Notes under the pieces: model-generated
The model's input: only the letters and a program-made list of their open reading frames with translations
The model's database searches: none
Told to the model about the DNA's origin: nothing
Assembly (NCBI GenBank): GCA_015068765.1
Contig: SVJY01000012.1
Coordinates: forward strand, 1 to 45,422
Source: Oscillospiraceae bacterium
GTDB lineage: Bacteria > Bacillota > Clostridia > UMGS1883 > UMGS1540
Length of the DNA: 45,422 nt
Direction: 5' to 3'
Shown here: piece after piece, positions 7,766 through 45,422 of the stretch
Layout of the letters: each line of letters starts with the position of its first letter
Position numbering within the stretch: the stretch's first letter is position 1
Translations under genes and position numbers: made by a program

Positions 7766-7780
7766 TGGGAGGTATACAAA

Positions 7781-11361: not shown

Positions 11362-11372
11362 GGATCAGGGCT

Positions 11373-12848: not shown

Positions 12849-12867
12849 AACAGTAAGGAGAAGTTCT

Positions 12868-14046: not shown

Positions 14047-14065
14047 AGCGAAAGGAGACGCTACA

Positions 14066-16227: not shown

Positions 16228-16246
16228 TGAAAGAAGGTCGACGAAC

Positions 16247-17002
16247 ATGAAAACTTGGAACAACAGAGAATTTCCCGCCGAATGGCATAAATACCCTTAC
16301 CACGCGGGCGAATTTATGGGACAGCCGTATATCGTCGTCTGCCCGAAGGATGTGCCTGCAAACGGAAAATGGATACTGAAAACAGAATATTTCGGTGCCT
16401 TTCCGGAAACGGAATTTGCCCTTTTGGAGCGTGGATACCATGTGGCACATGTCCACAATATATCCCGGTGGTGCCCCGATGAAGTCACCGAAACCCAGGC
16501 CGCCTTCGTGGATTTTGTCCACAGCCGATTTGGGCTCTCGAAAACCTGTGTGCCCGTTGGGATGAGCTGCGGCGGCATGCAGGCTATATTTCTTGCGGCA
16601 AAGTACCCGGAGACCGTTTCCTGTATGTTTATTGACGCACCGGTTTTAAACTTTCTTTCCTCTCCCTTTGGTTTTGGTAAGAAAAACCCGGATGACACAA
16701 TAAAGCTAACAAAGGAATTTATTGCACATAGAAATATTGATCAGATTGCGATTCTTTCCTACCGTCACCATCCCCTGGATTATCTCCCCCGGCTTGTAGA
16801 AAATAAAATTCCCACCATTATGGTAGTGGGTACGTGTGACACCGCTGTTCCCTACGAGGAAAACGCCCTCCTTCTCAAAGAAGCCTATGAAAAAGCCGGC
16901 AACATTCTGGAAACATACATTTGCCCCGGAAGAGGACATCACCCCCACGGTCTTGAAGACATTACACCCATTGTATCCTTTATTGAACGGTACAGCAAAT
17001 AG
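16247..17002 (+). CDS. Alpha/beta hydrolase, copy 1 of a tandem pair
   Basis: The track ORF begins in the ETF gene; AAGAAGG nine bases before the ATG at 16247 sets the true start, giving 251 residues without a signal peptide. The nucleophile elbow GMSCGGMQA holds the catalytic Ser near residue 110. A likely Asp is in VVGTCDTAVPYEEN and the His in GRGHHPHG near the end. The fold resembles prolyl-oligopeptidase/esterase-type hydrolases. It follows the ETF gene by 19 bases and is paralogous to the gene at 17173. Given the operon, a deacylation or small-ester cleavage role on the imported substrate is plausible, but no specific reaction is recognised. Confidence 0.75.
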   Translation: MKTWNNREFPAEWHKYPYHAGEFMGQPYIVVCPKDVPANGKWILKTEYFGAFPETEFALLERGYHVAHVHNISRWCPDEVTETQAAFVDFVHSRFGLSKTCVPVGMSCGGMQAIFLAAKYPETVSCMFIDAPVLNFLSSPFGFGKKNPDDTIKLTKEFIAHRNIDQIAILSYRHHPLDYLPRLVENKIPTIMVVGTCDTAVPYEENALLLKEAYEKAGNILETYICPGRGHHPHGLEDITPIVSFIERYSK

Positions 17003-17013
17003 AAAAGAGCCTT

Positions 17014-17117
17014 GGTTTGCGTCCAAAGGTTTCTTTTGCCGCCGGCATTTCCGGTGCGAAACATTTGCTGTCGAAACGGCAGACACCGTGATTGCCATAA
17101 GCCCCGATAAAGGACTG
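17014..17117 (+). pseudogene. Decayed fragment of an EtfA C-terminus
   Basis: Between the two hydrolases one frame reads GLRPKVSFAAGISGAKH and, after a shift of frame, VETADTVIAISPDKG. These correspond in order to VSPKIYIAVGISGAVHH and IENADTVIAINPDKN in the C-terminal FAD domain of the upstream ETF fusion. Comparing the two copies at base level, the fragment is seven bases shorter between the conserved blocks, which breaks the frame. It therefore looks like the leftover tail of a second etf gene that was duplicated together with the hydrolase and then lost. No start signal or intact frame remains. Confidence 0.72.
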
Positions 17118-17172
17118 TTTCCCATACAGCTTATGGTATCCGCAGCAATTATAATAAGGAGGACTTTATAAA

Positions 17173-17925
17173 ATGAGCATGCTTGACTATTGTTTGGATG
17201 AAGGCGGAAAGACCTGGAAAGGCTTTTCGTTTATTGAAGACACCTTTATGGACAGGAATTATGTTCTTGTTCTTCCCAAGGAAGGCACCGCAAACGGAAA
17301 GTGGATTCTTAAAACCGAATATTTTAACGCTTTCCCGGAAGTGGAAATTGCCCTCTTAAATAAGGGCTGGCACGTGGCACACATTAACAATGTTTCCCGT
17401 TGGTGCCCCGATGAGGTTACGGAAACACAGGCAGCCTTCGTAGGCCACATTCACAAAACATACGGGCTTTGCGAAAAGTGTGTGCCCGTCGGGATGAGCT
17501 GCGGCGGTATGCAGGCTATATTTCTTGCGGCAAAGTACCCGGAAACCGTTTCCTGTATGTACATTGACGCACCTGTGGTAAATCTCCTCTCCTGTCCCTT
17601 TGGTTTTGGCAAGAAAACAGCGCCCAGTATGACAGAAGAATTTATAGCGGCACGGGGCATGGACAGTATTTCCATCCTCTCCTTCCGTGACCATCCGCTG
17701 GATTATCTCCCCCGGCTCACCGCACAGGATATTCCCACCGTGCTGGTATCCGGCGACAGTGATTCTGTGGTTCCCTTTGAGGAAAACGGGAAGCTTTTTG
17801 CGGATGCCTATACGGCGGCAGGCCGTACACTGGAAACATATATCAAGCCCGGCGGTGATCATCATCCCCACGGTCTTCCCGATATTTCGCCACTCGTTGC
17901 TTTCATTGAGAAATATGCAAAATAA
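17173..17925 (+). CDS. Alpha/beta hydrolase, copy 2 of a tandem pair
   Basis: 250 residues, AAGGAGG upstream of the ATG. Same architecture as copy 1: GMSCGGMQA nucleophile elbow, VSGDSDSVVPFEEN with the likely Asp, and KPGGDHHPHG with the His. The two proteins also share the unusual block SRWCPDEVTETQAAFV. Around the nucleophile the DNA is nearly identical to copy 1 for roughly 80 bases, while flanking parts differ much more, suggesting gene conversion or strong constraint there. Last gene of the catabolic operon before a terminator-like hairpin. Substrate unknown; the N-terminal 15 residues differ from copy 1, which may reflect separate specificity. Confidence 0.75.
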   Translation: MSMLDYCLDEGGKTWKGFSFIEDTFMDRNYVLVLPKEGTANGKWILKTEYFNAFPEVEIALLNKGWHVAHINNVSRWCPDEVTETQAAFVGHIHKTYGLCEKCVPVGMSCGGMQAIFLAAKYPETVSCMYIDAPVVNLLSCPFGFGKKTAPSMTEEFIAARGMDSISILSFRDHPLDYLPRLTAQDIPTVLVSGDSDSVVPFEENGKLFADAYTAAGRTLETYIKPGGDHHPHGLPDISPLVAFIEKYAK

Positions 17926-17941
17926 TCGTTTTGCACGTATA

Positions 17942-18008
17942 AACGCCCTCACCGCCGAGTAGCTCTCCGCGATGGGGGCGTTCAATTTATCGGGGATTTT
18001 TTCTTTTT
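17942..18008 (+). terminator. Probable terminator of the catabolic operon
   Basis: AACGCCCTCACCGC (17942-17955) can pair with GCGATGGGGGCGTT (17969-17982), a 14-bp stem with one wobble and one mismatch and a 13-base loop. A T-rich run follows about 15 bases later. The distant T-run makes it imperfect. Confidence 0.5.
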
Positions 18009-18040
18009 GCCCGTCCTTCGAGGACAGAAATGAAAAAAAT

Positions 18041-18090
18041 TTGACAAGTGTATAGGAAATATGCTAAAATATAAATGAAAATATTTTTCA
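18041..18090 (+). promoter_or_regulatory. rpiR promoter with operator-like palindromes
   Basis: TTGACA (18041-18046), 18-base spacer and TAAAAT (18065-18070). TGAAAATATTTTTCA (18076-18090) is a palindrome with 6-base perfect arms located at the predicted transcription start. A related TGAAAAAAATTTGA (18031-18044) overlaps the -35 box. The first shares 13 of 14 bases with the palindrome in the 6.1-kb divergent promoter region, so autorepression by RpiR is likely. Confidence 0.65.
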
Positions 18091-18163
18091 AAAAATGCGT
18101 GTGTTTCGATTGCATATATTGCAACCGTGCACGCATAAATACGCACCGGGTTTGGAGAACGTT

Positions 18164-19000
18164 ATGAACAAAGTTACTTTAAAAATCAAAGTTTTATTGG
18201 ACGAAATGGGAAAGGCGGAAAAAAAGGTTGCCCACTGGATTTTAGAGCATCCGGGAGAAATTTTGCCCCTTTCTATCGTAGAGCTTGCAGAAAAAGCGAC
18301 TTGCAGTGAGGCGACGATTTTTCGCTTTGCACAGCATTTAGGCTTTACCGGCTATCAGGAATTAAAAATTGCCCTCGCCCGCGAAACCAAGAGTGCGATT
18401 GTAAACGCACATATGACTGCGGAGGACAGTGCATTTGAAATCTTTGAAAAGGTTTGTAATGATATATACTGCTCCTTGGAGCGTACAAAAAAGGTGCTGG
18501 ACCCCGATGTGCTGCAAGCGGCGGCAGATTCGGTTATGGCCGCCGGCAAAACCATTGTGATGGGGCTCGGAAATTCTGCGGCAGTCGCGCAGGATGCCGC
18601 CCACAAGCTACTGCGAGCCGGCTATACCGCATTTGCCTATACGGATAACCATATGCAAATGATTGCGGCGGCACACCTCAATCCCGGCGATGTGGCCATC
18701 GGCATATCCCATTCCGGTTCTTCCAAGGACGTAATTGAAGCCTTGCAAACGGCGAAGGAACACGGTGCAACAACCATTTGTATTACGAATAAAGGCAAGT
18801 CACCGATCCAGAAGCATAGCGATCTGGTTCTGTATACCTCCTCCGAAGAAACCCAGTATAATATTCTGGCCTTAAATTCCAGAATTGCACAGCTTTCCAT
18901 TATCGATGCCCTGTATTATCATATTGTATACCAGCAGTCCCCCAAAACCCTTCCCTCCATCGAGGATACGGAAAGCTCCCTGAAAACAAAAAAATACTGA
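18164..19000 (+). CDS. RpiR-family transcriptional regulator (HTH plus SIS domain)
   Basis: The ATG at 18164 has GGAG eight bases upstream; the track start at 18095 has no ribosome site and overlaps the promoter palindrome. 278 residues. An N-terminal helix-turn-helix (about 1-80) contains KATCSEATIFRFAQHLGFTGYQELK, and the C-terminal SIS sugar-phosphate-binding domain (about 110-250) contains VMGLGNSAAVAQDAAHKL and IGISHSGSSKDVIEAL. RpiR proteins sense phosphosugars and repress or activate sugar, amino-sugar, inositol or sialate genes. Neighbouring NagA/NagB/IolB functions and the shared palindrome suggest it controls the divergent operons at 6.1-6.25 kb and itself. A strong hairpin follows the stop. 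Confidence 0.87.
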   Translation: MNKVTLKIKVLLDEMGKAEKKVAHWILEHPGEILPLSIVELAEKATCSEATIFRFAQHLGFTGYQELKIALARETKSAIVNAHMTAEDSAFEIFEKVCNDIYCSLERTKKVLDPDVLQAAADSVMAAGKTIVMGLGNSAAVAQDAAHKLLRAGYTAFAYTDNHMQMIAAAHLNPGDVAIGISHSGSSKDVIEALQTAKEHGATTICITNKGKSPIQKHSDLVLYTSSEETQYNILALNSRIAQLSIIDALYYHIVYQQSPKTLPSIEDTESSLKTKKY

Positions 19001-19008
19001 GAAATGTT

Positions 19009-19058
19009 CATGGGTCTGTAAAAAATCAACTTTTTTACAGACCCATGTTTCTTTTTTT
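19009..19058 (+). terminator. Strong rho-independent terminator after rpiR
   Basis: CATGGGTCTGTAAAAAA (19009-19025) and its exact complement (19031-19047) form a 17-bp stem with a 5-base loop, followed by TTTCTTTTTTT. It separates rpiR from the convergent Asn-rich small gene. Confidence 0.88.
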
Positions 19059-19078
19059 ACATTCCCCGGAAAGTCAGC

Positions 19079-19243
19079 CTAGCGGTTCTGATTTTCCTGA
19101 TTGTTATTGCGGTTATTCTTGTTATTGTCCTGATTATTGTTGCGGTTATTGTTGCTTTGGTTGTTCTGGTTGTTCTGGTTGTTTCTGTTGTTCTGCTGAT
19201 TCTGGTTGTTGTTCTGGTTGTTATTGTTCTGATTGTTGTTCAT
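19079..19243 (-). CDS. Asn/Gln-rich 54-residue small protein
   Basis: Too short for the ORF track and read manually. GGAGGTGAAACC lies directly before the ATG, an excellent ribosome site. The product begins MNNNQNNNNQNNNQ and is almost wholly Asn and Gln with scattered Arg and single Ser, Asp, Lys and Glu, ending QENQNR. No signal peptide, membrane segment or Cys. The Cys-rich plus-strand ORF at 19045-19308 is its shadow. It is divergent from the amidohydrolase gene and convergent with rpiR. Such low-complexity Asn-rich proteins could act in spore coats, phase separation or aggregation, but none of this is shown here. Function unknown. Confidence 0.65.
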   Translation of the reverse strand: MNNNQNNNNQNNNQNQQNNRNNQNNQNNQSNNNRNNNQDNNKNNRNNNQENQNR

Positions 19244-19268
19244 GGTTTCACCTCCTTAATGATTACGA

Positions 19269-19300
19269 GTATAGTTTGCCTCGCTTGTGGAAAACTATAC
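19269..19300. promoter_or_regulatory. Inverted repeat between the Asn-rich gene and the amidohydrolase gene
   Basis: GTATAGTTT (19269-19277) and AAACTATAC (19292-19300) flank 14 bases in the 89-base divergent gap. It might be a shared operator; on the minus strand TATACT within it could be the -10 box of the small gene. No clear -35 box was found for either gene. Confidence 0.4.
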
Positions 19301-19332
19301 GCAGTTAATCAAAATGAAGGGAGACTTTTCCC

Positions 19333-20466
19333 ATGCTTCTAATCCAAAACGGACTTTTATTTACTATGGAGGACGAAAGACCCAGACGGGGAGATTTACT
19401 CATCCAGGAGGGAAAAATTGCCAAAATTGCTGAAAGCATACCGCCGACGGAGGGTATGCAGATTTTCAATGCCGCCAGCATGCAGGTATTCCCCGGCTTT
19501 ATCGATGCCCACAGTCACATCGGCATTTGCGAGGAACGGACAAGCGGACAAGGGGACGAAAGCAACGAGGGCACCAATCCCCAAACACCCTGTATGCGTG
19601 CTATTGACGCAATCAATCCCATGGACGCCGCTTTTCATAACGCCCTTGCCGCCGGCATTACGGGTGCCATGGTCGGGCCCGGCAGTGCCAACGCCATCGG
19701 CGGACAGTTCGCTTTTATTAAACTGCACGGTCGGCGGATTGACGACATGATCGTCCTCGCGCCTGCCGCCATAAAAATTGCCTTTGGGGAAAATCCCATG
19801 ACAAACTACGGCACAAACGGCAATATGCCCTCCACACGCATGGGCATTGCTTCCCTGATTCGTGAAGAGCTGTTCCTTGCACGGCAGTATTTTGAAGGCG
19901 GTGACGGCAAAGCCTTTGCCACGGAATGCTATCGGGATTTATTTGAAGGAAGGATTCCCTTAAAAGCCCATGTGCACCGGGCAGATGATATTTTCACGGC
20001 CATCCGCATTGCAAAGGAGTTCGGGCTGGGACTTACCTTGGACCATTGCACGGAGGGGCACTTAATTGCGGAGGAAATCGCCGAAAGCGGATTCCCTGCC
20101 ATAGTTGGGCCCTCTCTTGCCTCCCGTACAAAAAAAGAAGTAAGCCTCTCCGACTTCAAAACGCCGGGTATTCTTCGCAAAAAAGGCGTGCCGGTTGCAC
20201 TGACGACGGACCACCCCGTGTCTCGCATTCAGTATCTGCCGCTTTGTGCGGCACTGGCGGCAAAGGAAGGCATGGGGGAATGGGACGCACTCCGTGCCAT
20301 CACCATAGATGCCGCACGCATCTGCCGGGTAGACCACCGCATCGGAAGCCTTACCGTCGGAAAAGATGCCGACCTTTGTATCTACAGCGGCAGTCCCTTA
20401 GAAATTGCATCTTCCGTTTGTGCCACAATCATAAACGGTGTCATCGTGTGGGCAAGGCAGGCTTAA
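19333..20466 (+). CDS. Imidazolonepropionase-like metal-dependent amidohydrolase
   Basis: 377 residues; AAGGGAG lies nine bases upstream of the ATG. Amidohydrolase landmarks: FPGFIDAHSHIG (HxH metal pair near residue 60), KAHVHRADDI near 213 (metal His), LDHCTEGH near 235 (metal His), and ALTTDHPV near 294 with the metal Asp. The C-terminal beta-sandwich segment GSLTVGKDADLCIYSG is typical of this superfamily. It hydrolyses a C-N bond in a cyclic or N-acylated small molecule, probably in the cytoplasm. It has its own upstream region and is not obviously part of the rpiR unit. Substrate not predictable. Confidence 0.8.
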   Translation: MLLIQNGLLFTMEDERPRRGDLLIQEGKIAKIAESIPPTEGMQIFNAASMQVFPGFIDAHSHIGICEERTSGQGDESNEGTNPQTPCMRAIDAINPMDAAFHNALAAGITGAMVGPGSANAIGGQFAFIKLHGRRIDDMIVLAPAAIKIAFGENPMTNYGTNGNMPSTRMGIASLIREELFLARQYFEGGDGKAFATECYRDLFEGRIPLKAHVHRADDIFTAIRIAKEFGLGLTLDHCTEGHLIAEEIAESGFPAIVGPSLASRTKKEVSLSDFKTPGILRKKGVPVALTTDHPVSRIQYLPLCAALAAKEGMGEWDALRAITIDAARICRVDHRIGSLTVGKDADLCIYSGSPLEIASSVCATIINGVIVWARQA

Positions 20467-32265: not shown

Positions 32266-35200
32266 ATGAATCGAAAAATCATGTCCGCATTTATCATTTT
32301 ATCCCTTCTCGCTTCCCTGTTCATCCCTTTTACGGCCCTTGCCGAAGGGGAAGTGGAGAACCTATTGGTAAACGGCAGCTTTGAAGAAGAAAAAGGCGAC
32401 TGGACACCTGCCTGGGAGCTTCTGGGCGACGGTGTAAAGGGCGAAAATGCCGAAATTTCGGATAAGGATGCCGCAGACGGTGACCGTTCCCTGCGTTTTT
32501 ACGGTAAAAGCAGCTCTGTTTTTGTTGCACAGCTGATTGAAAACACAGCACCGGAAACAGATTTTACGTTCACCGGAAAAGTCAAGTATGTAAAAAAAGG
32601 AGAAAACTGGCCGCAGATTAAGGTTACATACTTTTCTCCCGACGGCTACGGCTCCTATAACACCGTGGAAGAGCCTGCCGAGGTCTTTAAAGTGGGCGTG
32701 GGAAAGTGGACCGAGGTTTCCTTTACCTCCACTGCTCCCAAAAACTGTACAAGAATTTCCCTTCTGGTTCGCCTCGTCGGCGGCGGCGAATGCTATTGGG
32801 ACGATGTGAAGTTCACCGGCCGCAGAGCCACGTCCGAAGAGCTGGCGGCGGCACAGAAGGCCGCTACAGAGCTGCATCTTTCCGAAGATGCCGGCCCGGT
32901 TGCCTCTCCCTCCCCCTCTCAGCTTATCAGCTACACCTCTGAAGGGAATGACACCTACAACTTTGTAAAAAACGGCGATTTTGAAGTGGTAAACACGAAA
33001 GGTCTGCCCACGGGCTTCTCTCTTACCGGCGGTAAGGTGGGCGAAAACATAGTTGTCAGCACGGAGGACCCCTATGAAGGCAATAACAGCGTCCGTTTCT
33101 ACGGCACCTCCTCTAATATTTTTATATCCCAGATGCTCTACGGTCTCCTCCCCGGAGAGGCGTATAAAGTAACAGCCGCACTGAAGGTTGTGAAGCCCGG
33201 CGGTCAGAGCTTCGTCAAGTTTGAATTCCAGGATGAAAACAATCAGGTTATCGGCGAGGCGGGATGCGATTTTAAAAAGGCATGGAAGGACGGCGTCTGG
33301 TCTCTCGTGGAGGATAAGGTGGAAATTCCGGCAGGTACGGCACGTGTTTCCATGCTCGTTCGGCTTGTGGGCGGCGGCGAATGCTACTGGGATGACGTGA
33401 AGGTCATCGGCAAAGCCAGCGATACCATGGCGGCCAAAGTTTATTATGCCGAAGAGTTTTCGGAAACGGTTTCCGAAGAAGTTATCGAGGATCCTACGGC
33501 ATATAAGCCCCCCTACGGTAACACCGGCAACCTTCTGACAAATGCTGATTTTGAGGCGGTTTCCGGCAATGCCTTATCCGGCTGGTCCTCCAGAACTGGC
33601 TTCGGCACGGCTACCTCCTGTGCCTTTGTGGAAACCGAGCAGGTACATTCCGGCAGTACGGCGTTAAAGCTTGTGGATACAACAGGCTCCAATAACCCCT
33701 TTATTTCGCAAATTGTTCCCGTTGTGGGGAACGCAGAATACCAGATATCCTTCTGGGTGAAAAAGGAAAGCGGCGTTTGCGACCCCGTAATTAAGTTTGA
33801 ATTCTGGGGTGACAGAACACTCGCCGGTGCAAGCACTGTGGCGGAAACTGCGGTGGATGCCGGTCGGGAAGCCCCCAACGAATGGAAGCAGCATATTCTC
33901 ACCTTCCGAGCACCCAGTAATGCCCTCGACGTTACGATTTTGGTCCGTATTCTGGGCGAAGGTGTAACATATTTTGACGATATCAGCTTCTATATGACCG
34001 CTCCGCCCTCCGCCTTTATTCTGGATACAGACTGGGTCTTCTATTATTCCGATTGGGAAAAGGGCACCATCACCTCCCAGGCACAGCTTGCCTTCTTCCC
34101 CGAGCTTACCGATGCCCTTGTGGACTTTTCCATCAAAGACGGCGAAACGGTTATCTTTGCGAAAAAAGGCGTGGTATCCGAAAACGGCATCGCCGGTGTG
34201 GACTTTGATCTGTCTCTTTTGAAGGAGAAGAAGAAAAAATACATAGTGGAAGCTTCCATATACGGAAAGGACGGTAAGGTTTTAGAAACCCGTACCCAGC
34301 AGATTTATAAATACGACCGTCCCAAGTACCTCCGTGAAGACGGCATCTTCATGAAAAACGGCGTAGAGCCCATTGCGCCCGTGTTTGCCTATCACTGTTC
34401 CCACTATCCGGAGGCCGCCTCTGCCGGCATCAACATCGTGCAGGGTAACGCCATGACAAGTGTAGAGGCACATCTCCAGTATCTGAACGATGCACAAAAG
34501 AACGGGCTTATGATTCTGGTACCTCTTTATGTAAACATGAAGCCTGCCGGACATATTGACAATGTGGAAACCACTATTGATGTCATCAACGCCATCAAGG
34601 ATCATCCGGCTTTGTTCGGCTATGCAGTTATGGACGAACCGTTCCTTGCGGCAGAGAACCCGGAACGGGATATGCGCAATTCCTACCGCCTCATCCGGGA
34701 CCTTGACGATAATCATCCGGTGTATACCGTTGAAGCGGTTGCAGGCTTTTACAGAACCTGCTCCAAGTATGTAGACGTTCTCGCCATTGACCCCTACGGC
34801 GTGGCAACCGACCGCAATTCCTCCAATGCCACCATGCTTGCACTGGAAGCGGTAAAATACCAAAAGCCGGTCTGGACGCTTTTAGAAGCCTTCCGGCATC
34901 CGGACGGACATTATCCCACGGGTGACGAAGAAAGAAACATGATTTACCAGGTTCTGATTGCCGGCTCCAGTGCCATCGGCTACTACAGCTTCAGCGATTC
35001 CGAAGTGGATGAAAACGGCAAATACACCGTTCCGATTTTTGAAATGGACGATATCTGGAGCTCCATTAACCTGTATAACGAAAAGGAATACAAAGAAACC
35101 TTCGATCATTTCGTATTCGGTAACAGCCCTGCGTTTAACGAAAACAGAGGCGACGATTTCTGGTACAGCAGCTGGGTGAAGGGGAATGATATCTACATGG

Positions 35201-35949
35201 CCGTACTGGGTATGAAGAAGGGGCAGACGATAAACGCTTCCGTTCCTCTCACAGACTTCAGCGGTACCATCTCTGTGGGTGACTATACCGCGACAGTGAT
35301 TGCCGGTGCCCCGGAAGGTACCATCAGCGGCAACGGTACACTGGACGTAACGCTTTCCGGTGCACAGACCGTTTTATACAAAATCACCCCCGGCACACCG
35401 CTTGATTTTAGTGCCCTAGGCAAAACAAGGCTGGATGACCTTGCCTCCCATTCCTGGGCCAGGGCACAGATTGCACGGCTTGACGAAAAGGATATTATTA
35501 ACAAAATCTCGACCTGGTCCTTCCAGCCCGGCGAAAATATCACCCGTGCCGATTTTGCATACTTCCTCATCCGCACACTGGGTCTCACCGCTGACAGCAC
35601 CGAGCAGTTTGCCGATGTGGATCCAAATAAATACTACGCCAAGGAAATTGCGATCGGCAAAGCCTTAGGGATTCTAAACGGCGTGGGCGACAATAAGTAT
35701 AACCCGGAAGCCGCCATTTCCCGTCAGGATATGATGACCATTATCGCACGGGGTATGCAGCTGACAGGGGAAGCGGACCTCTCCGCCTTCTCCGACCGGG
35801 ATGCCATTGCCGATTACGCACTGGAATGTGTGAAGGCTATGATCGCCTCCGGTCTTATCAAAGGAAACGCCGACGGCACCATTAACCCCAGAGGTAACAC
35901 AACAAGAGCAGAATCTGCTGTGATTATGGCAAGAATTCTGGATATGTAA
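32266..35949 (+). CDS. Giant secreted CBM(x3) / glycosidase-like / SLH(x3) surface protein
   Basis: 1227 residues; TTAGGAGG precedes the ATG. Signal peptide MNRKIMSAFIILSLLASLFIPFTALA. Three beta-sandwich modules (about 29-182, 225-385, 425-585) start with LVNGSFEE-, VKNGDFEV- and LTNADFEA-type motifs and end YWDDVKF, YWDDVKV and YFDDISF, as in CBM4/9/22-like binding domains. An Ig-like segment (about 590-685) precedes a TIM-barrel-like domain (about 685-945) with GYAVMDEPF near residue 784, a candidate acid/base. A beta domain and three SLH repeats (from about 1045) close the chain and would attach it to cell-wall polymers. It is a paralogue of the protein at the left edge. Probable extracellular glycan binding and cleavage; GH family not identified. 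Confidence 0.87.
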   Translation: MNRKIMSAFIILSLLASLFIPFTALAEGEVENLLVNGSFEEEKGDWTPAWELLGDGVKGENAEISDKDAADGDRSLRFYGKSSSVFVAQLIENTAPETDFTFTGKVKYVKKGENWPQIKVTYFSPDGYGSYNTVEEPAEVFKVGVGKWTEVSFTSTAPKNCTRISLLVRLVGGGECYWDDVKFTGRRATSEELAAAQKAATELHLSEDAGPVASPSPSQLISYTSEGNDTYNFVKNGDFEVVNTKGLPTGFSLTGGKVGENIVVSTEDPYEGNNSVRFYGTSSNIFISQMLYGLLPGEAYKVTAALKVVKPGGQSFVKFEFQDENNQVIGEAGCDFKKAWKDGVWSLVEDKVEIPAGTARVSMLVRLVGGGECYWDDVKVIGKASDTMAAKVYYAEEFSETVSEEVIEDPTAYKPPYGNTGNLLTNADFEAVSGNALSGWSSRTGFGTATSCAFVETEQVHSGSTALKLVDTTGSNNPFISQIVPVVGNAEYQISFWVKKESGVCDPVIKFEFWGDRTLAGASTVAETAVDAGREAPNEWKQHILTFRAPSNALDVTILVRILGEGVTYFDDISFYMTAPPSAFILDTDWVFYYSDWEKGTITSQAQLAFFPELTDALVDFSIKDGETVIFAKKGVVSENGIAGVDFDLSLLKEKKKKYIVEASIYGKDGKVLETRTQQIYKYDRPKYLREDGIFMKNGVEPIAPVFAYHCSHYPEAASAGINIVQGNAMTSVEAHLQYLNDAQKNGLMILVPLYVNMKPAGHIDNVETTIDVINAIKDHPALFGYAVMDEPFLAAENPERDMRNSYRLIRDLDDNHPVYTVEAVAGFYRTCSKYVDVLAIDPYGVATDRNSSNATMLALEAVKYQKPVWTLLEAFRHPDGHYPTGDEERNMIYQVLIAGSSAIGYYSFSDSEVDENGKYTVPIFEMDDIWSSINLYNEKEYKETFDHFVFGNSPAFNENRGDDFWYSSWVKGNDIYMAVLGMKKGQTINASVPLTDFSGTISVGDYTATVIAGAPEGTISGNGTLDVTLSGAQTVLYKITPGTPLDFSALGKTRLDDLASHSWARAQIARLDEKDIINKISTWSFQPGENITRADFAYFLIRTLGLTADSTEQFADVDPNKYYAKEIAIGKALGILNGVGDNKYNPEAAISRQDMMTIIARGMQLTGEADLSAFSDRDAIADYALECVKAMIASGLIKGNADGTINPRGNTTRAESAVIMARILDM

Positions 35950-37573: not shown

Positions 37574-37628
37574 GGTAAATATTTTACTGTATAAGGCGTT
37601 ATTAGGTAAATATTTTACTATTATAAGG
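37574..37628. repeat. Tandem operator-like direct repeats upstream of the GH4 promoter
   Basis: GTAAATATTTTAC occurs at 37575-37587 and 37606-37618, each a near-palindrome with GTAAA/TTTAC arms, and each followed by TATAAGGC within a few bases. The 31-base period equals about three helical turns. They lie just upstream of the GH4 -35 box, the place for an activator site; the second copy abuts the stop of the glucosaminidase gene. Confidence 0.65.
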
Positions 37629-39666
37629 CATGATAAAGATTCAAGGCAATCTGTGCCACCTGGGCCCGGGTAGCCGTCGCATCCACACCGAGCGAGCCGT
37701 CCCCCATACCGCGGAGCACCTCATTTTCCAGGCACCACGCCACCGCCGTCTTGGCCTCCCGGTGCAGCGGTTCAAAATCGGAAAAGCCCTCACCCATCGC
37801 TATATCCGCTTCCCCACTCTGTCCCATTGCCTCGGCAAGATAACAGGCCGCCAGGGCCATTTCCAGCCGCGTTACCGGCGTGGACGGGCTGAACATCGGT
37901 CCGTCCGTAAAGGGCAGAATCCTCTCGGCATACGCCCATGCGATCGGTTCGGCATACCAGGCCGCAGGGTCTACATCCAGATACGGAAGTGCCCCCACGT
38001 CTGCCTCGTCCCATCTGTACATATCCTTCGCCAGTCGGAAAAGCACGGTAATAAACATACTCCGGGTCATAGAAAGCTCCGGCGAAAATTCCGTTTCACT
38101 CGTGCCGGTGAAAAGTCCCATTTCCGCCACCGTATTCACCACGTCCTCCGCCCAGTGCCCGTCCATATCCCGAAAGCCACCTTCTTTGATTACTTTCACG
38201 CATACTGCGGCCATACCGCCGCCGGAAGAGAGGGCGTATAGCACCGCTTCACCGCTTTTCTTTGCCTGCACAACGCCTGCCTCATCCACCTCTACCACGT
38301 TCCGGTCCAGGTTTTCCCAATATAGCCGACCGCTTCCGCCGTCTGCCGCCGGGCAGAGATCAAACGCGTCCCCTGCCGCAAGCTGTACCGCCGGCAGAAG
38401 CGTAATATATTCTGCACTGACATAGCCGGTTACCGTATCGGTTTGAATTTCGTACCAATAAGGATTTTTCAGATTCTCCATCCGGTCCTCTGTATCCGTC
38501 CGGGTAGCAGAAAGCACCGTCACCTGTTCCCCGGGTGCCACACTGCCGCATCGGTCATAGGAAACCGCCGGGCCGGAGCGTACGTTCACATTCCCGCTGT
38601 AATTGGAAATGCCGCGCTGCTCGATAACCCCTGCAAAGGAAACCTGTGTGTCCGCTTCCGGCATATTTTCATAAACGGGAATATAAAATACCTTGGCATC
38701 CGCAAGGCTTCCTGCGGCTTCGTAGCCCTTATACGTCCCCTGTGCCTGTCCTGCCGCACCGTATATGTTGGTCATATACTGGTGGGTATAGAGGGCATAG
38801 CCGCTGTCCGGCGACACATTAAATCGTTCAAAATACATGGTATTCTGCCCTTTGGAGATATACAGCTCACCCAGCCAGACGGCACCGTTTATAATCGATG
38901 CCTCCGGGCTTGTCCACGGGCGACCGTAGGATGTGCCGAGGCTTGCCCAGTTCAGACCGTTGGCAATGGGGTTTACGCCGTCGTTTGCCCCGATGTTATA
39001 GAAATTATAAATACCGGGGTAGCCTGCATAGGTGCCGGTAACGCTCCCCGAAGGGGTAACGCCGATTTCCGTGCGGATTTTCGAGGCGATATAATAGGGG
39101 GAAACGCCGCTTTCCGCCGCCGCCTCCATCATAACCTCGCTATAGGTCTTTTCCGTTTCCACCGTTTCGCCCTCTGCCGTCACATAGGAAATCAGGGCTT
39201 CGTGCATAAAGGTGCCGTCCAGTATCAGCTCCACGCCCTCTAAGGTGTGGTAGGTTTCGTCAAAGGAAAGGGCCTCAAACTGGAAAATATATTCCTCATT
39301 TAAAAAGTTTGCCGGGTTCATGAAATAATCCACCGTTGCCCCGGCGGCTGACACCCATGTGGAGGCATCATGGTACGTATACGTCTTTTTTTCCGGGTTA
39401 TAATGCCCCTCGCCCGTGTTCCGGAGAAGGGGGCTGTAATACTTTTCTACCAAGCTTTTCTTTCCGATCTGTGCCGCCACCGCCTCGTCCCAGTCAAGGC
39501 CCGTCTCCACCGCCACGAATATCCATTCCGGATACTTTTCGTGAATGACAGACAGTGCCGCCTGCCATGGGGCAGGGAAGGCGGCCAGCTCGCTTTCATA
39601 GTCCGCCGCTACCGGCATATGTAAAAATAAAAAGCAAAGTAAAAGTGCGATCCATCGTTTTATCAT
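37621..39666 (-). CDS. Secreted glucosaminidase with SH3 and SLH domains
   Basis: 681 residues; signal peptide MIKRWIALLLCFLFLHMPVAA. The catalytic region (about 20-310) resembles clostridial GH73-type endo-beta-N-acetylglucosaminidases, with EYIFQFEAL, IASKIRTEIGVTPSGSVTGTYAGYPGIYNFYNIGA (probable catalytic Glu near 200) and GLNWASLGTSYGRPW. An SH3-type domain follows (about 355-430: ISNYSGNVNVRSGPAVSYDRCGSV), then a BIG2-like segment (about 430-500) and three SLH repeats (about 500-681). It probably cleaves peptidoglycan glycan strands while held at the cell surface. Transcribed alone and divergent from the mrp gene. Confidence 0.88.
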   Translation of the reverse strand: MIKRWIALLLCFLFLHMPVAADYESELAAFPAPWQAALSVIHEKYPEWIFVAVETGLDWDEAVAAQIGKKSLVEKYYSPLLRNTGEGHYNPEKKTYTYHDASTWVSAAGATVDYFMNPANFLNEEYIFQFEALSFDETYHTLEGVELILDGTFMHEALISYVTAEGETVETEKTYSEVMMEAAAESGVSPYYIASKIRTEIGVTPSGSVTGTYAGYPGIYNFYNIGANDGVNPIANGLNWASLGTSYGRPWTSPEASIINGAVWLGELYISKGQNTMYFERFNVSPDSGYALYTHQYMTNIYGAAGQAQGTYKGYEAAGSLADAKVFYIPVYENMPEADTQVSFAGVIEQRGISNYSGNVNVRSGPAVSYDRCGSVAPGEQVTVLSATRTDTEDRMENLKNPYWYEIQTDTVTGYVSAEYITLLPAVQLAAGDAFDLCPAADGGSGRLYWENLDRNVVEVDEAGVVQAKKSGEAVLYALSSGGGMAAVCVKVIKEGGFRDMDGHWAEDVVNTVAEMGLFTGTSETEFSPELSMTRSMFITVLFRLAKDMYRWDEADVGALPYLDVDPAAWYAEPIAWAYAERILPFTDGPMFSPSTPVTRLEMALAACYLAEAMGQSGEADIAMGEGFSDFEPLHREAKTAVAWCLENEVLRGMGDGSLGVDATATRAQVAQIALNLYHAL

Positions 39667-40997: not shown

Positions 40998-43346
40998 TTA
41001 CTGCATAAATCCATATTTCGTTTTCACCCTTTCCAGCTTTTCCAAAACAGACCCGCCGGCAAGCCACAGGAAAAAGGCAGTGGATAGGGCATGGATTGCA
41101 TCGAAGGGTGCACCCAGCGTAAAGGCGGACCACAGCTGTGCCACGGTCGGATTCGGTTGCCACAAAAGAAGGGACGACAGATTCATAATCCCACCGTACA
41201 CTAAGAAAGTGATGATGCCGCCGAACAGGGACAAGGCAAGGCGTGTTTTCCCCAAAAGGTCTCGCTGTGCCGGCACCCCTGCCAGAAAGCCGATACTGCC
41301 CAGTGCAAGCATCTGCCATGGCGTCCATGGACCTTGTCCGAAGAAAAAGTTGGAGACAAAGGCAGTCACTGCCCCCACCAGAAAGCCGGTCTCGCCACCT
41401 AAGGCGACGCCCGCCAGTATCACCAGTGCCGCCACCGGTTTGAACTGAGGCAGCATATAGAAGGCGGCACGGCCGGCCACGCCGATGGCACACAGCACGC
41501 TGACGAGCATCAGCTCCCGTGCCGAAGGCTTCCTGCCCTCAAAGGAAAGGGCGAAGGGCACCATAATTTCCAAAAGGAGAAGAAGGCTGATAAAGTAATA
41601 CGGTTTCCGCCCGTAAAAACCGAGAAGAATGGTTATGGGAACTGCCAAAAGAACGAATGCCAAGGCGATTTTCTTTTTTATTTTTCCGCGGGAAACAGCC
41701 GGAAACGGGCTAGGCTCTTCCGGTGGCACGGGCGGCATCAGCATGGGTGCGGCAGGGGGCTTTGGTTTTTCCTCTATACCGCCCAAGGCGGCAATCACGT
41801 CCCCGCAAAGCACCGCTTCTGGCAGACAGGTTTGTGCCATTCGGCTTGCTGCCGTTGTATAAAAGCTTTTCCCGGCGAAAAAAGCACGGGGCTCGTCCGC
41901 CGCCACGATGTTCCCATCAAAAAACATGGCACATCTGTCCGCATATTCCGCACAAAATTCTATATCATGGGAGACCATAACCGTGGTAACGTCGGCACTA
42001 CGCAGTATTTCGGCAAGCTGTTTTTTGAAAAGTCCGTCCATGCCCTTCGTGGGCTCATCCATGAAAAGTACCGCAGGGTCCGTAAGAAGCACCTTGGCAA
42101 GTGCCGTCCGTTCCATTTCGCCGCCGGATACATCAAAGGGATGTCGGTCTAAAATATCTCCAATCCGGCAGAGGGTGACGACCCTCTCCAGCTTCTGCGT
42201 GTCCCGGCACAGTGCCGTAAGCTCTTCGTATACGGTTTTTTGGGTAAAAAGCGTCTGGGGGTTTTGGGGCAGAACGCCTATTTTCCCTACAACACGCACT
42301 TTGCCCCGGTAGGGCGACAAAAGCCCCGCCATAACGGACAGTGCGGTGGTTTTCCCAACGCCGTTTCCGCCTACAATCGCAAAAATCTCGCCTTTCCTAA
42401 CGGTCGCAGAAAACGACCGCAGTATATCCGGCCCGTTTTTCTCGTAGCGGAAGAAAATATCCTTCGCTTCCACCACCGGTTCGGTATCCACCGGCGGCTT
42501 TGCCTTGGGAATTTTCGCCGGGTCTACCTGCCGGTTTTCCAGCCATTCCCGTCCTTCCCGGACAGTGACCGGTGCCGTCCCCCGCCCTTCTACCGCCATA
42601 TAAATCCGCAGGGGCGTAGGGAGTATTCCTGCAATTTCGTGTCCGGCAAGAAAGGTGCCCACCGCAGAGGGCGGTGCGTCGGCAAGAAGCCTTCCGTCTT
42701 CCATCACAATAACCCTGTCGGAAACAGAAAAGGCTTCCTCGGTTCTGTGCTCGCAGAGAATCACCGTCGTCCCCAGCTCCCGGTTAATTTTCTCCAGCAT
42801 CCGGATAAACTGTCCGGCGGCAACCGGGTCCAGCTGGCTGGTAGGCTCGTCCAAAAGAAGCAGAGACGGGCGAAGCAGCATGACCGCCGCCAGATTCAGA
42901 AGCTGCTTCTGTCCGCCGGAAAGCCTCTCCACCTTTTCGTGAAACCAGGTCTGAATCCCGAAAAAGGATGCCATTTCTGCCACCCTAGTCCGAATTTCTC
43001 CGGTGGGCACGCCCAGGCTTTCCAGCCCGAAGGCAAGCTCATGCCACACCGTATCCGTTACAATCTGGCTGTCCGGATTCTGCAAAACAAAGCCGATTTC
43101 CTCCGTCTGTGCCCGGTGGGAAAGTGCAGTAATATCCTGCCCCTTATACCGTACTGTGCCTTCCTGTATGCCGTGGGGCGAAAGCGTAGGCTTCAGGAGC
43201 CGAAGCAAGGTGGTTTTGCCACAGCCGGATTTTCCGCACACGGTGATAAACGCCCCCGCCTGTACGGAAAGGCTTATGTGGGATAGGGCAGGCTCTGTCA
43301 TGCCCGGATATGTAAATTTCAGATTTTGGACTGCAAGTATTTCCAT
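40998..43346 (-). CDS. Fused ECF transporter: ATPase-ATPase-S component
   Basis: 782 residues in one chain. ATPase 1 (about 1-270): CGKSGCGKTTLLRLL Walker A, FVLQNPDSQIVTDT Q-loop, ERLSGGQKQLLNLA signature, LLLLDEPTSQLD Walker B and CEHRTEEA H-loop. ATPase 2 (about 290-500): VGGNGVGKTTALSV, VLPQNPQTLFTQ, DVSGGEMERTALAK, VLFMDEPTKGMD and MVSHDIEF. A Pro-rich linker leads to a six-helix-type S component (about 560-782) with ARELMLVSVLCAIGVAGRAAFYMLP and SNFFFGQGPWTPWQM. ECF modules import vitamins; the ATPases power EcfT and the S component binds the substrate. GGGAGG precedes the ATG, which overlaps the EcfT gene. The DUF4430 partner points to a corrinoid as cargo (inference). Confidence 0.9.
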   Translation of the reverse strand: MEILAVQNLKFTYPGMTEPALSHISLSVQAGAFITVCGKSGCGKTTLLRLLKPTLSPHGIQEGTVRYKGQDITALSHRAQTEEIGFVLQNPDSQIVTDTVWHELAFGLESLGVPTGEIRTRVAEMASFFGIQTWFHEKVERLSGGQKQLLNLAAVMLLRPSLLLLDEPTSQLDPVAAGQFIRMLEKINRELGTTVILCEHRTEEAFSVSDRVIVMEDGRLLADAPPSAVGTFLAGHEIAGILPTPLRIYMAVEGRGTAPVTVREGREWLENRQVDPAKIPKAKPPVDTEPVVEAKDIFFRYEKNGPDILRSFSATVRKGEIFAIVGGNGVGKTTALSVMAGLLSPYRGKVRVVGKIGVLPQNPQTLFTQKTVYEELTALCRDTQKLERVVTLCRIGDILDRHPFDVSGGEMERTALAKVLLTDPAVLFMDEPTKGMDGLFKKQLAEILRSADVTTVMVSHDIEFCAEYADRCAMFFDGNIVAADEPRAFFAGKSFYTTAASRMAQTCLPEAVLCGDVIAALGGIEEKPKPPAAPMLMPPVPPEEPSPFPAVSRGKIKKKIALAFVLLAVPITILLGFYGRKPYYFISLLLLLEIMVPFALSFEGRKPSARELMLVSVLCAIGVAGRAAFYMLPQFKPVAALVILAGVALGGETGFLVGAVTAFVSNFFFGQGPWTPWQMLALGSIGFLAGVPAQRDLLGKTRLALSLFGGIITFLVYGGIMNLSSLLLWQPNPTVAQLWSAFTLGAPFDAIHALSTAFFLWLAGGSVLEKLERVKTKYGFMQ

Positions 43347-44185
43347 CGAAAAACCTCCCGGATTTCAATTAAAATGGGCAAAAAGCAGAGGACGCCGTAG
43401 GCGGCATACGCCAGCGGTGCCGTATTGCCCGAAAGGGCAGGGTAGTAAAAAAAGCGGATTTTTCCTGCTATGCCGCTGCCGATGACGACGCCACCCAGAA
43501 GAAGGATAATAAAGAGAAGGCCTCGGTTATATCGGTCGAAGGTATACAGGGAAAATGTAGTCCTGCCGGGCAGACCATGCCCTCGGGCACGCATGCTGTC
43601 CGCCGTATCCACCGCATTTTCCAAAGACCAATCCAGCGTCACGGAAAGGGCTGTAATTGCCTGCCGCAACCGTCGGAGACTATTGCCGTCCCCTTCCCCG
43701 ATGCCCCGCTGTGCCATGCGGACCTTTTGTATCCGGTTGGTTAAATGGGGAACAAACCGCAGTGTCATGGAAAAAATGAGGGACAGCGACGGAAACAGCC
43801 GCCCGGTAAGGCAAAGAAGCTTATCGCTTGTCATAATCGCCGTAAAGCAGGAAAAATGCAAAACCACGGCACAGAGCATCACGGCGGCGGCAAGGCCGTA
43901 AAGAACGGACTCAAGCGTCAAGGGATTGCCGCTCGGGAAATAGGTTAAAATTGTCTCGCCTCGGTGATTCAAAAGCACATTAAAAAGCACCGCAACGATG
44001 CAAAGCGGAATCAGATACAGACACGTCCTAAACGCCCTTTTCCCGAAAAGCACCCAGGCATGGGCAAAACCGCTGACGACGGAAATCCCTAAAAGCACCG
44101 GATGCATACAGAACATGGTAACCCCGATAACGGCAACAAAGTATGTGAAATTTACAAGGGGATGATACGTTTTGAAGCTTTGCAT
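43319..44185 (-). CDS. ecfT: ECF transporter transmembrane subunit EcfT
   Basis: 288 residues with several hydrophobic helices and the coupling-helix motif AVDTADSMRARGHGLPGR (Ala-Arg-Gly motif that contacts the ATPases) near residue 195. GGAGG precedes the ATG, three bases after the DUF4430 stop, and the 3' end overlaps the fused ATPase/S gene by 28 bases, so all three are translationally coupled. It is the membrane scaffold that joins the two ATPase domains to the S component during vitamin uptake. Confidence 0.9.
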   Translation of the reverse strand: MQSFKTYHPLVNFTYFVAVIGVTMFCMHPVLLGISVVSGFAHAWVLFGKRAFRTCLYLIPLCIVAVLFNVLLNHRGETILTYFPSGNPLTLESVLYGLAAAVMLCAVVLHFSCFTAIMTSDKLLCLTGRLFPSLSLIFSMTLRFVPHLTNRIQKVRMAQRGIGEGDGNSLRRLRQAITALSVTLDWSLENAVDTADSMRARGHGLPGRTTFSLYTFDRYNRGLLFIILLLGGVVIGSGIAGKIRFFYYPALSGNTAPLAYAAYGVLCFLPILIEIREVFRWKYLQSKI

Positions 44186-44188
44186 AAC

Positions 44189-44863
44189 TCAGCCTCCGTA
44201 GGCATAATCGTTTCCGTAGTTGCAGGTATAGAAAAATTCGACGGTATCGCCGGGCGAAAGCCTATATTGGGAGCAACCGACATGCGGAGAAACGCCGTTG
44301 ACATAAAACAGCCAGCCGGAACCGCTTCCACCGTCAAATTCATATAGATTCTGTATACCTTCAATGTACACACTGCCATAGGCCGGCACCTTCGTATACT
44401 CTAAATGAATACCGTGCTGACGGGTGAGACGGTACAGCACGTCCCATACGCTCTCCCCTTCTGCATATGCAACGCTCTGTGCCGCAAAGATAACCCCATC
44501 CGAAGGAACGAGCCCTTTTTTTTCGTCAGAAAGTGCGTCGTTTCCCACAAGGGTATCACAGCGGATGGAAAACGTGCATTGCGTGGCGGCTTCCACCGCC
44601 GCATTGTCTCCCACAGAAGCCGCCGGCGTCTCCGGCGTACGTTCCTCCTCCTTTTCTTCCTCTTCCGGAAGCGTGGAGGTCGGGGAAGCTGTGGGAACTG
44701 CCGGAATAAACGCAGCAGAAGGGTGTGGCGTGGGCGAGACGGTGGGCAGGGGAGCCGGCGGAGATGCCGGCTTCTCTCCCCTAAAATAGGTAACGCCCAA
44801 TAGGATAACCACAGCCAATATTCCAATCACAGTGAATGGATTTTTAACTTTCGGAAATTTCAT
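44189..44863 (-). CDS. Membrane-anchored DUF4430 (transcobalamin-like C-terminal domain) protein
   Basis: 224 residues. An N-terminal uncleaved-type membrane segment (PFTVIGILAVVILLGVTYF) is followed by a long Pro/Ser/Thr/Glu-rich spacer (about 30-100), which would reach through the wall. The C-terminal DUF4430 domain (about 100-215) ends with GSGSGWLFYVNGVSPHVGCSQYRLSPGDTVEFFYT. This domain is related to the beta domain that closes over cobalamin in transcobalamin and intrinsic factor. AAAGGAGAGG precedes the ATG. First gene of the ECF operon, so it likely presents the vitamin to the S component on the cell surface. Binding of B12 itself is inferred. Confidence 0.82.
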   Translation of the reverse strand: MKFPKVKNPFTVIGILAVVILLGVTYFRGEKPASPPAPLPTVSPTPHPSAAFIPAVPTASPTSTLPEEEEKEEERTPETPAASVGDNAAVEAATQCTFSIRCDTLVGNDALSDEKKGLVPSDGVIFAAQSVAYAEGESVWDVLYRLTRQHGIHLEYTKVPAYGSVYIEGIQNLYEFDGGSGSGWLFYVNGVSPHVGCSQYRLSPGDTVEFFYTCNYGNDYAYGG

Positions 44864-44877
44864 AACTACCTCTCCTT

Positions 44878-44939
44878 TATACCGTCACGGTATAAAATAT
44901 CGTTTGCAGTATTGTATCATATACATCGGCCTTTTGCAA
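44878..44939 (-). promoter_or_regulatory. Promoter and operator-like palindrome of the DUF4430-ECF operon
   Basis: On the minus strand TTGCAA (44934-44939), 17-base spacer and TACAAT (44911-44916). Between the -10 box and the ribosome site lies TATACCGTCACGGTATA (44878-44894), a palindrome with 7-base arms that could be an operator or a short mRNA hairpin. No cobalamin riboswitch was recognised in this 104-base gap. Confidence 0.6.
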
Positions 44940-44967
44940 GTAAAGCAGACAGAAAAGCTCCGTTCTC

Positions 44968-45422
44968 TCATTGCAAAACAGTTTCGCAAAGCCGCATCAG
45001 CACAGTTGCCATTTGTGCACGGGTGACGGTGCCGCCAGGGGCAAGGGTGTTGTTCTCCATACCCTGAATCAATCCGGCTGCATAACTCCACGAAACGGCT
45101 TCCCGTGCCCAATCACTGATTTCTCCGGCATCCCTAAAAGCAGAAAGACTTGTTTCTCCGGTGTCGATCCCCTTTTTTGCGGATACGTAGCGATACAAAA
45201 CTGTCGCCAGCTGTTCTCTTGTAACGGGGCTTTCCGGGTGGAATGTGGTTTCGCTGTCTCCTAAAACAATGCCGCCGGTGGCTGCCCATGCCACGGCCGG
45301 GGCATACCATGCGTCATAGCTTACGTCCCGGAAGGCGGTTTCGCCGGTGTATGTGCTGCCACTTAGCCGGTACAGCACCGTGACCAGCATTCCCCGGCTG
45401 ACCATGGCTTCCGGTGCAAAGC
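44968..45422 (-). CDS. SLH-domain protein, C-terminal part (5' end outside window)
   Basis: The open frame runs past the right edge; the track start at 45405 is an internal Met, since FAPEA precedes it in frame. The visible 150 residues are about three SLH repeats: FRDVSYDAWYAPAVAWAATGGIV, FRDAGEISDWAREAVSWSYAAGLIQG and the closing TLAPGGTVTRAQMATVLMRL. These bind pyruvylated cell-wall polymers. It is upstream of, and in the same direction as, the DUF4430-ECF operon with 104 bases between. In related gene groups such proteins carry an alpha/alpha barrel and DUF4430 domain; that part would lie outside this window, so the function is open. Confidence 0.82.
   Translation of the reverse strand, partial: FAPEAMVSRGMLVTVLYRLSGSTYTGETAFRDVSYDAWYAPAVAWAATGGIVLGDSETTFHPESPVTREQLATVLYRYVSAKKGIDTGETSLSAFRDAGEISDWAREAVSWSYAAGLIQGMENNTLAPGGTVTRAQMATVLMRLCETVLQ

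Follow-up and report, generated by a model that had tools for sequence, protein, structure and literature searches.

A predicted corrinoid scavenging operon pairing transcobalamin-like surface proteins with a fused CbrT-type ECF transporter in an Oscillospiraceae bacterium

Capture of vitamin B12 at the cell surface has been established for Bacteroides, in which BtuG works at the outer membrane together with the BtuB receptor (PMC6143338); BtuG is a beta-propeller lipoprotein (PMC6977713). Among energy-coupling factor (ECF) transporters, ECF-CbrT of Lactobacillus delbrueckii (PDB 6FNP; TCDB 3.A.1.32, the cobalamin-precursor ECF family) has cobalamin and cobinamide as proven substrates (PMC5997447), CbrT being a free subunit that uses a shared, general ECF module (group II). 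The CbiMNQO cobalt transporters, whose S component is CbiM/CbiN, are of the same ECF class and are often under cobalamin-riboswitch control. The animal B12 carriers transcobalamin, intrinsic factor and haptocorrin combine an alpha/alpha barrel (Pfam Cobalamin_bind) with a C-terminal beta domain (DUF4430). Here we describe a locus that, in the absence of binding data, we judge to be very probably a cobalamin-riboswitch-controlled corrinoid scavenging operon. Its likeness to BtuG/BtuB is one of functional analogy, a surface-exposed B12 binder placed ahead of a B12 importer; we see no sequence or fold relation between BtuG and the binders of the locus, and a BtuG-type binder was rejected on the grounds that the folds predicted here are an alpha/alpha barrel and a DUF4430 beta domain, not a beta-propeller.

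The window, meaning the whole stretch of DNA analysed, comprises positions 1-45,422 of contig SVJY01000012.1 and is the entire contig; it belongs to assembly GCA_015068765.1 of an Oscillospiraceae bacterium (GTDB lineage Bacteria; Bacillota; Clostridia; UMGS1883; UMGS1540). A preliminary description had placed four genes here, for an SLH protein, a DUF4430 protein, EcfT and an ATPase-ATPase-S chain (A-A-S), and reading frames and Pfam matches bear out all of them, 4/4 encoded on the minus strand (Table 1). The SLH gene is truncated by the contig end and is completed by contig C17 of the same genome (also L005), which shares 126 exact bases with that end; on the strength of this overlap we take C17 and the window contig (C13) to be adjacent. 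The operon so reconstructed reads B12 riboswitch, surface binder, membrane-tethered DUF4430 protein, EcfT and fused ATPase-ATPase-S, with the last two genes overlapping by 28 nt. The four-gene arrangement is not due to chance, as dozens of other genomes have the genes in this order.

Table 1. Features of the predicted operon (window positions unless prefixed by C17)
Feature	Position	Strand or location	Basis
Cobalamin riboswitch RF00174	C17:2710-2929	upstream of binder	64 bits, E 1.5e-14
Intrinsic terminator	C17:3018-3047	between riboswitch and binder start	hairpin -24.7 kcal/mol, z -4.7
SLH-repeat C-terminal part of surface binder	44968..45420	-	SLH Pfam 7e-27; 126-bp exact overlap with C17 end
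21-bp perfect palindrome TTTATACCGTCACGGTATAAA	44876..44896	.	just 5' of DUF4430 start codon
Membrane-tethered DUF4430 protein, 224 aa	44189..44863	-	DUF4430 2.3e-16; AF2 and Foldseek
EcfT, transmembrane coupling subunit, 288 aa	43319..44185	-	PF02361 (CbiQ/EcfT) 5.8e-6; solved-complex EcfT 1.6e-7; 5 hydrophobic segments
EcfA-EcfA'-S single chain, 782 aa	40998..43346	-	Pfam domains and motifs
First ATPase domain, residues about 1-229	42660..43346	-	Walker A 38, signature 142, Walker B 162; ECF_ATPase_1 5-229
Second ATPase domain, residues about 290-520	41787..42479	-	Walker A 326, signature 406, Walker B 426
S component, residues about 560-782, CbrT-like	41001..41669	-	profile vs 6FNP_A; TM scan

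The hallmarks of an ECF transporter, namely two ABC ATPases, EcfT and a membrane-embedded S component, are all satisfied. As had been proposed, both ATPases and the S component lie in one chain, in which Pfam finds two ABC_tran domains (2e-54) and S-type ECF domains (1.7e-7 and 1.1e-6), the latter including PF07155 at 31.9 bits, above its cut-off of 26.7; Walker A, signature and Walker B motifs each occur twice. This fusion is shared by 67 of 80 related loci. When a profile of the S domain (A1) was compared with all PDB chains, CbrT (6FNP_A) was reached at E=1e-11 over positions 45-218, with the next chain at 0.074, and CbrT was the only match of a single-sequence phmmer search. At the level of sequence comparison, then, the S domain is related specifically to CbrT rather than to other S components of solved structure and is homologous across the whole of it; the condition set for refuting the corrinoid reading, a likeness to an S family already proven to carry some non-corrinoid substrate, was not fulfilled. 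EcfA, EcfA' and EcfT are all there as in ECF-CbrT, and both systems are tied to a need for B12. Unlike CbrT, the S component here is joined covalently to the two ATPases, carries two additional hydrophobic segments ahead of its canonical region (TM scan), has a dedicated EcfT and comes with surface and tethered binders. The transporter core, a CbrT-type ECF system, is of an already known, predicted kind, and by homology EcfT and the fused chain would import a corrinoid with ATP, binding and uptake both being inferred.

The protein encoded next to EcfT had been described as tethered by a membrane helix and a long flexible spacer, and we locate these as a single N-terminal TM helix (residues 9-27) and a linker rich in P, T, A and E (residues about 32-95). 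Its sequence profile gave only chance-level matches to PDB sequences, mostly through the N-terminal part and linker, so that a structural comparison was needed. In Foldseek comparisons of its AF2 model (pLDDT 82), the top 17 matches were all transcobalamin, intrinsic factor or haptocorrin, with a TM score of 0.74 to the human transcobalamin beta domain; the supposed resemblance of DUF4430 to the cobalamin-closing domain of transcobalamin is therefore upheld as far as a predicted model allows. A solved structural neighbour of the model, 3U7Z, is labelled putative metal binding.

The joined SLH gene encodes a secreted protein of 971 aa that combines a predicted alpha/alpha barrel with a DUF4430 beta domain (Pfam 6.8e-17 on the C17 protein) and SLH repeats, in keeping with the earlier suggestion that the SLH protein might carry further binding domains and with the check proposed there, a look for an alpha/alpha barrel or DUF4430 domain in this gene. 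Both domains of transcobalamin, intrinsic factor and haptocorrin appear to be present, in identical order, with a sequence similarity that is weak but specific: Pfam Cobalamin_bind matches the C17 protein at E 3.4e-4 and 20.1 bits, below the cut-off of 25, which is why the binder is not filed under PF01122. The same model matched 4 of 10 binder homologues (best 9.7e-6), and a 10-member binder profile reached intrinsic factor at 0.002 among PDB sequences; a separate PDB search with the binder as a single-sequence query had no match. The fold was modelled by AF2 on a homologue, L031, and not on the C17 chain; the top 8 Foldseek matches of this homologue model belong to the transcobalamin/intrinsic factor/haptocorrin family (alignments of 454-478 columns), with moderate TM scores (0.38-0.50 by target) and large rmsd over the two domains. 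Unlike the animal carriers, the bacterial binder adds an N-terminal beta domain, a PEGA-like insert and SLH anchors. By eye the N-terminal domain resembles DUF4430, a profile comparison gave this only 13.6% probability, and the assignment was left unproven. Relatives commonly have a second, stand-alone barrel gene. No counterpart was found in the source genome, where the matches listed were to SLH repeats; SLH proteins number in the dozens there.

An Rfam search of the window alone returned no match, because the riboswitch sits on the next contig, C17; it is the only RF00174 cobalamin riboswitch found in the genome. As it lay outside the window and was invisible to the preliminary description, it lends independent support to the corrinoid reading. 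The source genome also has a MetH-type gene, whose product is likely the main corrinoid user. CbiD, CobS and a FecCD/BtuC-type permease were not found in it, absences that are weak on their own as the genome is 77% complete; across six genomes of the family, CbiD is absent from 6/6 and a MetH-type B12-binding domain is present in 6/6. In G004, a genome from the same genus, B12-binding domains occur without a match to the transporter.

The genes of the cluster are widespread among Clostridia and also occur in some Bacilli, with Paenibacillus and Acetobacterium strains among the carriers. Their arrangement bears on whether the DUF4430 and alpha/alpha-barrel proteins are merely unrelated adhesins or wall proteins that happen to precede a B12 transporter. 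The abundance of SLH proteins in the source genome would permit this, as would the wide distribution of DUF4430 and alpha/alpha toroids, complement C4 and terpene synthases being among the Foldseek matches of the L031 model. We nonetheless hold it to be quite unlikely: among relatives with enough upstream sequence, the DUF4430 gene abuts EcfT in 43/54 and an alpha/alpha-barrel gene lies <=5 kb upstream in 41/54 loci. Furthermore, a B12 riboswitch directly precedes the cluster in 17 of 25 loci tested and stands directly before the binder gene in many loci, which makes the whole set look like one B12 regulon. The barrel and beta domain are also found on separate proteins in many relatives. In L015, L042 and L050 the riboswitch, EcfT and A-A-S occur alone, and the binders are thus not essential to the transporter.

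The nature of the substrate leaves further alternatives to weigh. A Co2+ ECF transporter with metal-binding surface proteins would account for the label of 3U7Z and the match of EcfT to the CbiQ Pfam model, and CbiMNQO-type cobalt systems are B12-riboswitch controlled as well (PMC11477304, PMC4285132); it is very unlikely given that the S domain is CbrT-like, that CbiM/CbiN is unmatched in the locus (no CbiM family among the Pfam results for the window genes), that the fold predicted for the binder is a B12-carrier fold and that cobalt, with CbiD and CobS not found, would be imported without a known corrinoid use. That the imported compound is a precursor or a breakdown product of corrinoids (cobinamide, alpha-ribazole or dimethylbenzimidazole) and not a complete cobamide is unlikely on our reckoning. 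A TCDB-based paper does place CbrT in a 'cobalamine precursor' family (PMC3654945), and cobinamide is a CbrT substrate alongside cobalamin. Against this, CobS, required to complete cobinamide to a cobamide, was not found here, and an alpha/alpha barrel with a beta clamp would, we infer, suit a whole corrinoid and not a free lower base. Scavenging of haem or another tetrapyrrole has a precedent in the ECF haem importer reported for Staphylococcus lugdunensis (PMC7299338); the cobalamin riboswitch, the CbrT-like S component and the predicted B12-carrier fold all point elsewhere, leaving this barely credible.

Corrinoid collection at the cell surface, as first suggested from the window, therefore remains our preferred reading, supported by the CbrT-like S component, the predicted B12-carrier folds and the riboswitch, with binding and the order of hand-off inferred. 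Low internal corrinoid may lead the riboswitch to allow transcription past the terminator. The barrel and DUF4430 beta domain of the SLH-anchored, secreted binder would clamp a corrinoid as transcobalamin and intrinsic factor do (a fold predicted from the homologue), the second, tethered DUF4430 beta domain might take it over and present it near the membrane, and the dedicated importer, EcfT with EcfA-EcfA'-S, would by homology move it inward using ATP. That these parts form a Gram-positive relay, from two-domain transcobalamin-like carriers in the wall and a tethered beta domain to a CbrT-type S component that is itself covalently tethered, is a tentative and still doubtful proposal. We found no description of a transcobalamin-like surface module in the open-licence literature searched, nor of Gram-positive B12 gathering outside the membrane, for which the locus now offers specific, testable genes. 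It also points to what DUF4430, whose role in bacteria has been unknown, is likely to do, and the apparent likeness of these bacterial proteins to the intrinsic factor and transcobalamin of humans bears on the origins of the carriers and on how gut organisms compete for B12. With its S component fused in place, the A-A-S chain additionally allows a natural test of whether transport requires an ECF S component to part from the motor; one study states that its own data do not formally prove expulsion of the S component to be essential (PMC12075633).

Two smaller observations concern regulation. No promoter 5' of the riboswitch passed our scan on the plus strand; a perfect promoter at L005 2637-2609 was rejected as that of the operon, as it lies on the opposite strand and faces divergent NfeD/SPFH genes. 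The palindrome TTTATACCGTCACGGTATAAA has no further exact copy in the genome and is possibly an operator or a hairpin.

Four co-directional genes occupy the right end of the window on the minus strand, and every observed point of the preliminary description, namely the four-gene set and a DUF4430 protein tethered by a membrane helix and linker, is borne out by the gene coordinates and domain matches. The window is the entire contig C13, from a genome (G000) that is 77% complete. The DUF4430 protein has a single N-terminal membrane helix followed by a P/T/A/E-rich linker, and two extra hydrophobic segments (residues 560-578 and 584-602) precede the S part of the EcfA-EcfA'-S (A-A-S) chain. Because the DUF4430 and EcfT genes are spaced by 3 nt and the EcfT and A-A-S genes overlap by 28 nt, we infer that translational coupling across the three is likely. 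A perfect 21-bp palindrome (44876-44896), without another exact copy in G000, lies directly before the tethered DUF4430 gene and could serve as an operator or form a hairpin close to the ribosome site.

Features of the cluster on C13 and on C17, a second contig of the same genome
Feature	Contig	Position	Strand	Remark
Cobalamin riboswitch (RF00174)	C17	2710-2929		upstream of joined gene
13-pair hairpin, then T run	C17	3018-3047		between riboswitch and binder gene
Binder, joined gene	C17 + C13			signal-like N-terminus, N-terminal beta domain, alpha/alpha-barrel region, PEGA/carboxypeptidase-regulatory-like insert, DUF4430, SLH repeats
SLH C-terminal part of binder gene	C13	45420-44968	-	gene cut by contig end
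DUF4430 protein	C13	44863-44189	-	224 aa
EcfT	C13	44185-43319	-	
A-A-S chain	C13	43346-40998	-	782 aa; two ABC ATPase domains, then S component

The binder, an SLH-anchored secreted protein, was completed from an open frame running off the end of C17 (locus L005), recovered by a DUF4430 search of G000. An exact overlap of 126 bases links the end of C17 to that of C13. Beyond it, the final 22 bases of C17 (L005 5703-5724) have no continuation in C13 and resemble the reverse strand of sequence close by, which looks like a typical assembly-end artefact that had hidden the link. The joined product is 971 aa long and holds both of the domains that the preliminary description had proposed to look for in the upstream SLH gene: an alpha/alpha-barrel region, where residues 293-481 match Pfam Cobalamin_bind at a sub-threshold 3.4e-4, and DUF4430 (6.8e-17, residues 662-734). 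The join rests on sequence and is not proven by reads; it is credible because the gene order recurs in relatives whose cluster lies on one contig, such as L046 (binder, tethered DUF4430, EcfT, A-A-S) and L021, where the homologous binder is 1150 aa long (813 bits over residues 6-751). The riboswitch on C17 (64 bits against a cut-off of 31.5 bits, E 1.5e-14) is the only cobalamin riboswitch found in the 77%-complete G000, and together with the hairpin it would, by analogy, form an OFF switch acting by termination.

A profile scan with the S domain across a species-genome collection confirmed at least 577 relatives, and the 80 loci kept come from Clostridia MAGs, Sporobacter, Acetobacterium, Lutispora, Fusibacter, Paenibacillus and Bacillus. 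The A-A-S fusion occurs in 67/80 and a separate S gene in 7/80. Upstream counts were restricted to the 54 loci in which 3 kb or more precede EcfT: a DUF4430 gene adjoins EcfT in 43, and an alpha/alpha-barrel gene lies within 5 kb upstream in 41. Twenty of 25 loci tested with Rfam have a cobalamin riboswitch, located by our own position count directly before the first cluster gene on the same strand in 17. Within the window's family, L018 carries a riboswitch, a 1395-aa binder, a 523-aa barrel-SLH protein, tethered DUF4430, EcfT and A-A-S, and L015 a riboswitch, EcfT and A-A-S only. Gene order within the cluster can vary while the set stays the same: in L023 the binder and barrel genes (12471-19951) lie downstream of the transporter, not upstream. 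In Bacillus sp. REN16 (L045), a tandem pair of cobalamin riboswitches (661-855 and 1044-1224) precedes the binder gene, possibly a sharper or two-input switch. One contig with this Firmicutes-type cluster (L054) is labelled Nitrososphaerota archaeon, most likely a binning error.

B12 carriers head the matches in both structure searches. For an AF2 model of the window DUF4430 (30-sequence alignment, pLDDT 82), each of the best 17 PDB matches is a transcobalamin, an intrinsic factor or a haptocorrin, and the TM to the human transcobalamin beta domain taken alone is 0.74. These matches are followed by chains of 3U7Z, a protein from Ruminococcus gnavus that bears the label 'putative metal binding'. 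The binder fold was modelled on the homologue L031 (residues 25-690; 10-sequence alignment, pLDDT 85) in place of the C17 chain. The best 8 matches of this model are again transcobalamin, haptocorrin and intrinsic factor, ahead of complement C4 and other alpha/alpha toroids, with predicted-structure alignments of 454-478 columns that are long enough to span both barrel and beta domain. These matches have moderate TM-scores and a large rmsd, which would be expected if the relative placement of the two domains differs. At the sequence level, the binder profile finds intrinsic factor at 0.002, and the alignment takes in both domains in their order.

Similarity of the S component to a proven non-corrinoid family would have counted against the proposed corrinoid capture; instead, among all PDB chains, a five-member S-domain profile finds CbrT of Lactobacillus delbrueckii (6FNP_A) at 1e-11, with the runner-up at 0.074, and CbrT is the sole match of the single sequence. 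ECF-CbrT is proven to import cobalamin and cobinamide (PMC5997447); cobinamide as an additional substrate, that is, precursor uptake, cannot be excluded here. The most serious formal rival is a cobalt importer, since cobalt ECF systems are also found under B12 riboswitches (PMC11477304; PMC4285132), but the CbrT-like S component and the predicted B12-carrier fold speak against it, as does the failure to find the corrinoid-synthesis genes CbiD and CobS in the 77%-complete G000. CbiD, CobS and FecCD (BtuC type) were searched for and not found in the 77%-complete G000, which has a MetH-type gene. In the six genomes of the family, CbiD is absent from all (four are >90% complete), FecCD is over its cut-off in none, and all have a B12-binding domain of MetH type. 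These data fit an organism that depends on corrinoid without being able to synthesise it and takes it up through this cluster; the exception is G004, a genome of the same genus, with B12-binding domains and no match to this transporter.

Genes, domains, riboswitch and conservation are established, and the folds by prediction. From these we infer that the binder's barrel and beta domain would close around a corrinoid, that the beta domain on its membrane tether would take it over and present it to S, and that S, covalently held on its motor, would carry it inside. The natural A-A-S fusion makes it testable whether an ECF S component has to leave its motor for transport. The transporter core is of an already known predicted kind, because the transporter classification includes a CbrT family whose members have 6 or 8 helices (PMC3654945). 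As far as the open-licence literature was accessible, it gives no bacterial function for DUF4430; the capture module was not found described there, and mention in older ECF comparative work or subscription journals is not ruled out. The cluster thus joins a transporter of known type to a capture module for which no description was found.

Other genes of G000 deserve mention. A third, small, lipoprotein-like DUF4430 protein (contig C7, L006 6639-7193; 4.9e-9) is encoded right behind a glutamine synthetase-like gene, and no ECF genes were seen in its vicinity. Most of 44 matches across many contigs of the 1.7-Mb genome are SLH repeats, and surface proteins anchored in this way are unusually abundant here; window genes 2-3025, 32266-35949 and 37621-39666 are among them, and the last encodes a secreted protein, probably a wall hydrolase, that combines a glucosaminidase-like region with SH3 and three SLH repeats. 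At 6341-17002 of the window, an FAD-linked oxidase, an FGGY kinase and electron transfer flavoprotein (ETF) alpha are encoded co-directionally, in what looks like an ETF-linked operon for substrate oxidation.
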